DNA of 64,000 nucleotides. It comes from Coprinopsis marcescibilis. Lineage: Eukaryota; Basidiomycota; Agaricomycetes; Agaricales; Psathyrellaceae. The position numbers were made by a program, and so were the translations under genes. Below the pieces are notes generated by a model, which was given only the letters and a program-made list of their open reading frames with translations, ran no database searches and was not told the origin of the DNA. The number at the start of each line of letters is the position of its first letter. Position 1 is the first letter of the stretch. The stretch lies in assembly GCA_004369085.1 (NCBI GenBank), contig ML210273.1:1-64000 (forward strand). Direction: 5' to 3'. Positions 6,494 through 9,306 of the stretch are shown here, piece after piece.

Positions 6494-6565
6494 CTCTCTG
6501 TCTGGGAGTCGAACCCAGCTTTCGCGCGTGACAGGCGCGTGTACTAACCGATATACTAACAAAGA
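6494..6565 (-). tRNA. tRNA-Asp(GTC), intronless copy
   Basis: The minus strand folds as a 72-nt tRNA. The acceptor TCTTTGT pairs with ACAGAGA (one G-U), the D stem is GTAT/GTAC, the anticodon stem is CGCGC/GCGCG with loop CTGTCAC (anticodon GTC), and the T arm is CTGGG-TTCGACT-CCCAG. The discriminator base is G, as expected for tRNA-Asp. T-runs directly downstream on the minus strand fit Pol III termination. This is the only one of the full copies without an intron. Confidence 0.95.
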
Positions 6566-6744: not shown

Positions 6745-6828
6745 CTCTCTGTCTGGGAGTCGAACCCAGCTTTCGCGCGGACGTTCATAAATGACAGGCG
6801 CGTGTACTAACCGATATACTAACAAAGA
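6745..6828 (-). tRNA. tRNA-Asp(GTC) with 12-nt intron
   Basis: The mature body matches the copy at 6494-6565. A 12-nt intron lies at 6780-6791 (minus strand TTTATGAACGTC), exactly between A37 and C38, the canonical site for tRNA endonuclease splicing. A TTTTT run follows downstream on the minus strand. Confidence 0.95.
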
Positions 6829-6972
6829 CGGTATCTGTTCTTTGCCTCGTGACAGCACGGTGCCGAGCCATATCCATCGAAACTTTGAACCCAGAGGATC
6901 GCAAAAAAAAAAAAAGAATTTCCAGCCAGAGACAAGCAAGACTGCAGCAAAAGCAAAGCATCTCTCTCGGAG

Positions 6973-7055
6973 CTCTCTGTCTGGGAGTCGAACCCAGCTT
7001 TCGCGCGGTCGTTCTTAGTGACAGGCGCGTGTACTAACCGATATACTAACAGAGA
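6973..7055 (-). tRNA. tRNA-Asp(GTC) with 11-nt intron
   Basis: Same body as its neighbours except that the 5' acceptor strand is TCTCTGT, giving a fully Watson-Crick acceptor stem. The intron at 7008-7018 is only 11 nt (minus strand CTAAGAACGAC), again after A37. A TTTT run lies downstream on the minus strand. Confidence 0.95.
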
Positions 7056-7255
7056 ATCTGCTGAAAGCGTAGCGTAAAGAAAATAGACGACCTCTCCATG
7101 CCCATACCTGAACCACTCAGAAGCGCTTCACTCCATGCTCACACATGTCGAGAGTGAAAAAAAACGAAAGCATTACTATTGCCGTTCTACAACTCCTCTC
7201 CGAAACGCTAGAATCTACTCTAATCACGATCCCATTCCAGAAATCGGGCATGGTG

Positions 7256-9306
7256 TTACCGATCGACCTCGCTACATGCGGTTCAGAATGGTGCTCTGGC
7301 TGGAAAGAAATAATTCGAGTGACGTACCCGAACACAAGATCCATGGTACCGATGATGGCTACAGCATCAGCAAGCATGTGCTAGAAAAAGGTAAAAGGTG
7401 AGTGGAATGTCCTGGGGCTCTCTGGTCCATAACGTACATCTAAAGACGGTATGTTGGTCAGTAAACTATATCCTGGCATAAACGGGAAACACGTACGTCT
7501 CATCATGAAATCCGAGCCAGCAAGGTGGGCGAATCCAGGGGCACGGATACTGCACCGGTATGGTCGGTTGGTGCCGTCGCTAGAATCGTATGTTCATGAA
7601 ATGTCCACAACGCAAAAGGACAACAAAACTTACGAGACAAGGTAGACACCCATCTCTCCCTTGGGAGCCTCGATGGCGCTGTATGTCTCACCAGCGGGAA
7701 CAGAGTAACCCTCGCTGAAGAGCTGCACAGAAAGTCGTCAGCAACGAAACAACGCAAGTTCCTCATAGACTGTACCTTGAAGTGATGGATCAAGCTCTCC
7801 ATGCTCTCCTTCATCATCGCACGTGGTGGTGGGCTGAGCTTGTGGTCGTCAACCTTCACGACACCAGTGGGCATCTTGTTGAGGCATTGGTCGATGATGC
7901 GAAGCGACTCTCTCATTTCCTGCACACGGCACAGGTATCGGTCATAGCAATCGCCGTTCTTGCCAACAGGAACATCGAACTCGACCTGCAAACAGCAATA
8001 ATTCAGGGAAAGCGCATGGGAGAACAGGTCAGCCAGATACATACCTCGGCGTACTTGTCGTAGGGCGCAACCTTTCGCAAATCCCAAGGAACACCGCTAC
8101 CTCTCAGCATGACACCACTGAAGCTGTAATCCAAAGCTTCCTTGGCTGTCACCTTTCCGATACCAATTGTTCGCTCCTTCCAGATACGGTTGCCCGTTAC
8201 AACCTCCTCAATTTCGTCAACTCTGCTGGAAAATTGGGTTGCCCATTTGAAGATATCTTCCAAGAGACCGTGGGGAAGATCGAACGCAACACCTCCAGGT
8301 CGGACGTAGGCGGCGTGAAGACGAGCACCAGACACACGCTCGTAGAACTCCATCAACTTCTCTCGCTCCTCGAAACCCCAAAGGAAGGGGGTAAGACCAC
8401 CAACGTCCATGACGTGGGTAAGGATGGCCATCAAGTCTGGAACACCGTTAGCGCTTAGGGAAACGCGAGAAACAGAACAACGCACGATTGAGAATACGGG
8501 TAATTTCACCAAATAACGTTCGGATCCATTGTGCTCGTTCAGGGACTTGCACGTTCAGGAGCTTTTCGACAGCGAGAGAGTAGCAAAGTTCGTTGGTCAC
8601 TGTTGCAATAATTTAGCGAATTCGACCGGAGAGAATGCTGAGTTGACCTACTCATAGAGACGTAGTCCAGACGATCAAAGTAGGGAAGGGCTTGCGTATA
8701 AGTCTTGTACTCGATGAGTTTTTCGGTTCCGCGGTGCAAGAGGCCGATATGCTAGGTAATTCGTTTGAAGTTGGGGTCGACATGCAAGAAGTCAAATAGA
8801 GGTGTAAGTTTGCATTTTCCAAAAGACTTTAAGAGCGCCAATACTGACAGGATCCGCACGCAGAATTTCCTCTCCGTTCAACTCGAGAATCATTCGAAGC
8901 ACACCGTGAGCTGCAGGATGTTGGGGTCTATCCACCCAAATTAATAACCAGAGCTTGAGGTATAATACCCAAATAACACTCACCCAAAGTTGACTGTTCG
9001 TTCCCCACAATGAAATATGTTCCATCAACACCAATATCCTGGCTCCCAAGACTTCTACGACGTACCGGTAAAGTGCCTCATCTTTGAATCAGCTTCAGAA
9101 CCAGGTTCAGGCAGGATTTCACTTGCATGCAAGCCCTGAAGATCCTCGACGGTATGGTAGTCGTGGGCGGTCTTGGCCGCCTCAGGCTTCTCGGTTTGTT
9201 GTTGGCGGCGAGCTGCAGTCGTCGAGAGCGTCCTGCGTACTGCGGAGGTACTACACGACGCTGTCCTCGCTGAACGCGCTATCGAGCGCAAGAGCATGGA
9301 GGACAT
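7256..9306 (-). CDS. NADH:ubiquinone oxidoreductase 49-kDa subunit (complex I, mitochondrial)
   Basis: Twelve coding exons on the minus strand: 9306-9066, 8993-8984, 8927-8849, 8751-8652, 8599-8486, 8436-8045, 7985-7776, 7722-7634, 7579-7497, 7439-7438, 7380-7328 and 7271-7256. They total 1389 nt (462 residues), the usual length of the family. The Arg/Ser/Thr/Ala-rich N-terminus ([15 protein letters not shown]) is a mitochondrial presequence. Hallmarks in order are [63 protein letters not shown] and the C-terminal VFGEVDR. The subunit helps form the quinone-binding site and contacts cluster N2 in the matrix arm of complex I. The exons of 10 nt and 2 nt are required for the frame. The gene is divergent from the MRH-receptor gene across a 250-bp promoter. 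Confidence 0.93.
7438..7439 (-). other. Inferred 2-nt microexon of the complex I 49-kDa gene
   Basis: The minus strand reads ...ATGAGAC|gtacgt...ctttag|AT|gtacgt...ttctag|CACATG.... This gives two introns of 57 nt each (7440-7496 and 7381-7437) around the dinucleotide AT. Splicing through it yields MMR-H-HMLADA. Removing the whole 116 nt as one intron leaves the coding length at 1387 nt and shifts the frame before the conserved C-terminus. The human protein also has one residue between the equivalent basic residue and HMLAD. Confidence 0.75.

Follow-up and report, generated by a model that had tools for sequence, protein, structure and literature searches.

A predicted 2-nt microexon in the complex I 49-kDa subunit gene of Coprinopsis marcescibilis and its apparent traces in protein records of other Agaricomycetes

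Introduction

The P450 gene CYP621A of Fusarium contains an exon of 1 nt, which its authors called the first fungal case, and the same article cites exons of 2–5 bp in Arabidopsis, Drosophila, and humans (PMC12940212). In land plants, 1-nt exons of APC11 and VPS55 were shown by RT-PCR together with RNA-seq (PMC8831610, PMC4674806). The shortest exons given for the P450 genes of Phanerochaete chrysosporium are 6 bp long (PMC1184071).

Here we describe a predicted 2-nt exon, AT, in the gene encoding the 49-kDa subunit of complex I (NDUFS2) of Coprinopsis marcescibilis, which lies in a window of 64,000 nt (positions 1 to 64,000 of contig ML210273.1, assembly GCA_004369085.1) analyzed as a whole. 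Like the Fusarium CYP621A exon, the NDUFS2 exon is a fungal, ultra-small exon that lies in a conserved motif, was revealed by exon phases, and had been missed by annotation (PMC12940212). The Fusarium exon consists of one nucleotide, occurs in P450 orthologs, and is documented by transcript reads in two species (PMC12940212). The NDUFS2 exon, in contrast, has two nucleotides, belongs to a core respiratory subunit of Agaricomycetes, and is predicted here from sequence. The introns of placozoan cox1 are mitochondrial and not spliceosomal, unlike those of NDUFS2. The 1-bp exon of that mitochondrial gene is the subject of a smallest-exon report (PMC5436844).

With the plant APC11 and VPS55 exons the NDUFS2 exon would have in common its minute size, great age, wide distribution, and omission by reference annotations, whereas those exons are from plants and 1 nt long, and VPS55 also has exon-losing forms (PMC8831610, PMC4674806). 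The small introns and very small exons of a white-rot basidiomycete are a likeness to the Phanerochaete P450 genes; the exons there are at least three times longer, and they belong to a gene family and not to one conserved site (PMC1184071). Stwintrons, as defined in the abstracts consulted, are also close, short fungal introns that need two successive reactions, but they are nested, one intron lying inside the other and interrupting a splice element of it, whereas the introns of NDUFS2 are adjacent with two coding bases between them (PMC9024468, PMC12403724). Under these definitions the locus was rejected as a stwintron: both of its introns are complete, and removal of the entire 116 nt shifts the frame. 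A 2-nt exon in NDUFS2 was named in none of the titles and abstracts on microexons and stwintrons that were consulted, mostly from the open literature, and it could still have been published.

Results

The NDUFS2 gene is located at 9306–7256 on the minus strand and was modeled with 12 exons encoding 462 aa. Its product matched the Pfam profile PF00346 above the cut-off and was similar to PDB relatives over the length of the protein, as expected of the complex I 49-kDa subunit. Exon limits were placed by homology and by GT-AG ends, which gave exons of 241, 10, 79, 100, 114, 392, 210, 89, 83, 2, 53, and 16 nt, in this order, separated by 11 introns spanning 49–97 nt each. Exon 2 (8993–8984, minus strand) is a 10-nt microexon, TCAACTTTGG (T-VNF-G), and the 16-nt exon 12 (7271–7256, minus strand) is the last coding exon, ending EVDR-stop.

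Exon 9 (83 nt; 7579–7497, minus strand) ends ...ATG ATG AGA C, and exon 11 (53 nt; 7380–7328, minus strand) starts CAC ATG. The 116 nt between them (7496–7381, minus strand) consist of a 57-nt GT-AG intron, AT, and a second 57-nt GT-AG intron. Intron 9, upstream of the microexon (7496–7440), reads GTACGT...CTGAC...CTTTAG, is in phase 1, and is free of in-frame stops; intron 10, downstream of it (7437–7381), reads GTACGT...CTCAC...TTCTAG and is in phase 0, and its retention ends in TAG. Exon 10 (7439–7438, minus strand) supplies bases 2–3 of the His440 codon. The first-pass annotation had reported two 57-nt signatures around AT at 7381–7496, and its coordinates and lengths proved right on the minus strand. 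With AT, the coding sequence is 1389 nt (462 aa); the same annotation had held a coding sequence lacking AT to be impossible, which the gene model confirmed, in that skipping AT puts the frame off by two and gives an early stop four residues on (...MMRPHAC-stop).

AT completes His440, the single residue between MMR and HMLAD. With phmmer, 54 relatives in PDB scored E-values of 1e-30 or lower, possibly with a human chain among them, and this spacing is conserved in relatives: the site is ungapped in the five of these alignments that were viewed (7zm7_C, 9iho_D, 6gcs_C, 7b0n_D, and 6g2j_D, with 7b0n_D near-identical to 6gcs_C). This bore out the earlier argument, made from human NDUFS2, that exactly one residue lies between a basic residue and HMLAD and that C+AT encodes it here as His. 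6g2j_D, which we take to be the mouse protein, reads K-G-HMLAD across the site. Both the reading frame and the conserved protein require exon 10, as expected of an ultra-small (1–2 nt) microexon.

Models joining exon 9 to exon 11 through a single intron (35 nt or longer, with a GT or GC donor and an AG acceptor) were enumerated from the 28 donor and 11 acceptor dinucleotides within 7579–7328. The frame remained open to the end in 14 pairs, and none of these 14 models left exactly one residue between MMR and HMLAD; AT was the only one-residue solution among the enumerated models. The least damaging single-intron models either added 19 residues (removal of intron 10 alone) or reduced nine residues to one Pro (intron ending at 7359). 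Among internal exons of 3n+2 nt with both introns at least 30 nt long, the 116 nt accommodate AT and a 32-nt exon only, and the 32-nt exon was ruled out by two stops.

The longer intron would extend from 7496 to the acceptor CTGTAG at 7359 and produce an in-frame MMR-P-IIGT, with Pro in place of the nine residues HHMLADAVA. It is among the 14 in-frame models, and similar residues are skipped in the annotations of Lentinula edodes, Gautieria, and Sistotremastrum. However, it removes a block that is found in the five PDB relatives viewed and is aligned in 32/32 of the non-Agaricomycete named records listed (see below), and it leaves the second intron signature unexplained, so that we regard it as highly improbable.

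Both introns flanking the AT exon have a donor, a branch-point-like motif, and an acceptor, in keeping with an ultra-small (1–2 nt) microexon, with CTTTAG being the weak element. Scored with a small splice-site PWM built from the nine other introns of NDUFS2, the GTACGT donors of introns 9 and 10 reached 8.67 bits each, more than any other of the eight GT sites within the 116 nt. Introns 1 and 11 have GTACGT as their donor as well. The A of CTGAC in intron 9 and that of CTCAC in intron 10 each sit 18 nt before the 3′ end. The intron-9 acceptor CTTTAG scored low with this small PWM, at 1.74 bits against 5.70 for ATATAG and 4.39 for TGCCAG, both of which lie upstream. When the interior was shuffled with dinucleotides preserved and the outer hexamers fixed, the strict 2-nt arrangement (YAG-2 nt-GTRNGT plus branch motifs in both introns) recurred in 2/20,000 shuffles. 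An origin by intron duplication found no support, the interiors of the two 57-nt introns being no more alike than shuffles (477/1000 scored as high). The simplest history, as a conjecture, might be that a new intron was inserted two bases from an existing one.

Conservation in relatives was read from protein records. Two protein searches, each contributing its 120 top-ranked hits out of about 7,990 scored, gave a pool of 132 records, 112 of them with an organism name. The first search was ranked on the whole protein, which favors clean ends, and the second was scored on residues 90–436 to lessen this bias; counts pool both searches. The 20/132 records lacking an organism name were left out of the counts; at the site, 17 of these are clean, whereas P0118 and P0128 depart from the alignment shortly before it and P0122 shortly after it. 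The 112 named records were labeled as Agaricomycetes or others by their names, with only Tulasnella, Gautieria, and Sistotremastrum looked up.

Among the named matches listed, 53/80 Agaricomycete records were broken at the AT site, including a Psilocybe record (P0004) classed by eye, 26/80 were clean, and one ended earlier. None of the 32 non-Agaricomycete named records among the matches listed (by name Tremellomycetes, Dacrymycetes, Ustilaginomycotina, Pucciniomycotina, Ascomycota, Mucoromycota, and Glomeromycotina) was broken there. Broken records came from 36 of the 54 Agaricomycete genera among these matches, or 37 with Psilocybe, and some genera were counted several times in the record totals (e.g. 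eight Lentinula records). "Clean" refers to the AT site alone: errors occur farther along in several clean records, and the Steccherinum record is damaged from a point upstream. Rhizoctonia, Serendipita, Pyrrhoderma, Schizophyllum, and others are clean at the site, and the 26/80 clean records may reflect loss of the exon, its absence, or good annotation. In the first search alone (76 + 28 named records among the matches listed), insertions at residues 435–442 were present in 42/76 Agaricomycete records versus 0/28 others.

An alignment indel or end within three residues of the AT site was found in 51/80 Agaricomycete records among the matches listed. Beside the 10-nt exon 2, 25/79 and 23/79 Agaricomycete records in the same list were broken, and at the 16-nt exon 12 an indel or end occurred in 26/77. 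At six junctions between larger exons the corresponding numbers were 1, 4, 3, 7, 5, and 2 of the 80 Agaricomycete records listed, and the alignments of the 32 listed non-Agaricomycete records had one case across all junctions. The contrast between 51/80, 26/77, and 23–25/79 on the one hand and 1–7/80 on the other indicates that annotation damage tracks tiny exons.

These records also bear on a sequencing or assembly error, in which the gene would truly have a single intron and the frame would be restored by missing or extra bases. No second copy or allele of NDUFS2 was found in the genome assembly of the same organism; the locus is single-copy, and base calls there consequently go without a check from a second allele, which leaves room for such an error. 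A small base error, however, would not produce another complete set of donor, branch motif, and acceptor, and the same position is broken in records from many species that were sequenced separately. We consider an error the least probable of the three alternatives weighed here, with a chance close to nil.

The wrong residues in the broken records could in part be decoded as translated intron. Reading C+GTRNGT predicts R followed by an RNG codon and a TNN codon, as would result from translation of the donor of the first intron. MMR-R occurs in 24 broken records, in which the second residue fits an RNG codon in 22/24 and the third fits a TNN codon in 18/24. In 16 broken records (Psilocybe by eye) His comes first, and Val follows it in 11 of them: Cristinia, Moniliophthora, Lentinula aciculospora, Phlebiopsis, Hohenbuehelia, Tulasnella, Russula emetica, Fomitopsis, Laccaria, Suillus lakei, and Hericium. 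The residue after His-Val is R in 7, S in 3, and T in 1 of these, matching CAT followed by GTNCGT or GTNAGT. The conserved His is regained after the insert in 35 broken records (Psilocybe included). The insert ends in Asp in 5/35, matching YAG-AT-CAC (TD in Psilocybe and in Phlegmacium, LD in two Lentinula records with the same insert, and SD in one Lentinula), and in Gln in 9/35, matching the acceptor of the second intron as CAG-CAC; the remaining 21/35 end in neither, and their joints were left undecoded. Decoding was qualitative and drew on broad residue sets, with the His-Val group being the sharpest, and the decoded groups together agree with the four splice sites that a twin-intron arrangement would have.

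The first-pass annotation had proposed a comparison with related Agaricomycetes for the same 57 + 57 structure. The joints fit other records, whereas the lengths seem not to be conserved: the 19 residues read through in Phlegmacium imply a first intron of ∼54 nt, and the 22 in two Lentinula records imply one of ∼63 nt.

Four contigs were taken as cDNA-like because they are without introns. In P0012, P0023, and P0104 the ORF makes up 86–96% of contigs of 1.2–1.5 kb, and in P0005 it makes up 67% of 2070 nt; none of the four has intron-sized inserts over the covered parts of the query, and all are clean at the AT site. P0023 has a 408-aa ORF (95% of a 1298-nt contig) and shares 377/385 residues up to MMR with the annotated Phlegmacium glaucopus protein. 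At the AT site P0023 has one His, whereas the Phlegmacium annotation has 19 residues, RMYF...STD. Such a difference would be expected between the cDNA of a microexon gene and an annotation retaining the first intron. Elsewhere the Phlegmacium annotation contains another insert, of 17 residues, which marks it as error-prone in general. Taken together, the mistranslated introns and an intron-free relative with only His indirectly point to the same splice sites in other Agaricomycetes. A separate 563-aa record from an ENA contig (P0121) contains a NuoD-like N-terminal stretch twice, with the rest of the protein after the second; this duplication is possibly an artefact of assembly or calling.

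The stretch assigned to intron 9 might instead be no intron, or be regularly retained, with only intron 10 removed and 19 in-frame residues added. Its 57 nt are in frame and stop-free, and the outcome would resemble the annotations of Phlegmacium and of two Lentinula records. Such an insert is nevertheless missing from the cDNA-like Phlegmacium relative P0023, from the five PDB alignments viewed, and from 32/32 non-Agaricomycete named records listed. The stretch moreover has a top-scoring donor, the CTGAC motif, and an AG end, and His-Val directly after MMR in 11 other records runs contrary to retention. We therefore consider it very unlikely, while placing it above the longer intron.

Discussion

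We infer that exon 10 of C. marcescibilis NDUFS2 is a constitutive 2-nt AT microexon, spliced in through two successive, intron-defined removals, and assign this reading a probability of roughly 0.94; with high probability the finding is real. Short fungal introns are recognized across the intron, and splice-site complexes cover far more than two nucleotides. Each 57-nt intron would be recognized by intron definition through its own donor, branch-point-like motif, and acceptor, and the two would be removed one after the other, because two nucleotides cannot hold a 3′-splice-site complex and a 5′-splice-site complex at once. Removal of intron 9 replaces GAT by CAT before the donor of intron 10 (base −3, G to C) and raises the match to the U1 consensus from 6/9 to 7/9. 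Because of this improvement, there is a weak hint that intron 9 may leave first. The mode of action is predicted to be that of the published ultra-small exons. The earlier description of a 2-nt exon as near the physical limit of exon definition had to be reworded, because 1-nt exons have been published (PMC4674806, PMC8831610, PMC12940212), and because two intron-defined reactions fit better.

Judging from the decoded records, the microexon arrangement was probably already present in the ancestor of much, if not all, of the Agaricomycetes. Tulasnella, a member of the His-Val group, belongs to the Cantharellales (looked up), which we assume to branch near the base of the class; if its record is rightly read, the arrangement dates back near that base. 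On balance we lean toward the 2-nt exon predating the split of the crown Agaricomycetes, Cantharellales included, and having been kept since then in an essential respiratory gene. If this ancient origin is true, a class-wide 2-nt exon has been mistaken in most public gene models and would offer a natural test bed for the ordering of two splicing reactions across two nucleotides.

A very small exon in a core gene that is single-copy in this assembly appears to be common to many mushroom-forming fungi, its breadth across Agaricomycetes being unusually legible from annotation errors, and the long-term persistence of so small an exon is now directly testable using existing RNA-seq. Many Agaricomycete 49-kDa records carry errors at a conserved site near the C-terminus (53/80 named records among the matches listed), and these would carry over into phylogenies, proteomics, and models that use them. 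In the search for relatives' genomic DNA, viral contigs contained no match to the motif and, when scanned with the protein, yielded no relative. Among bacterial and archaeal genome contigs, the motif occurred in two stretches of bacterial-titled records, which were taken as chance.

Downstream of NDUFS2, three spaced tRNA-Asp(GTC)-like genes were observed on the minus strand at 6494–6565, 6745–6828, and about 6972–7056, one detected by ARAGORN, two by Rfam, and the third by eye. Tandem Repeats Finder reported no repeat for this cluster. Two of the three copies seem to hold short, differing insertions after the anticodon that resemble tRNA introns.
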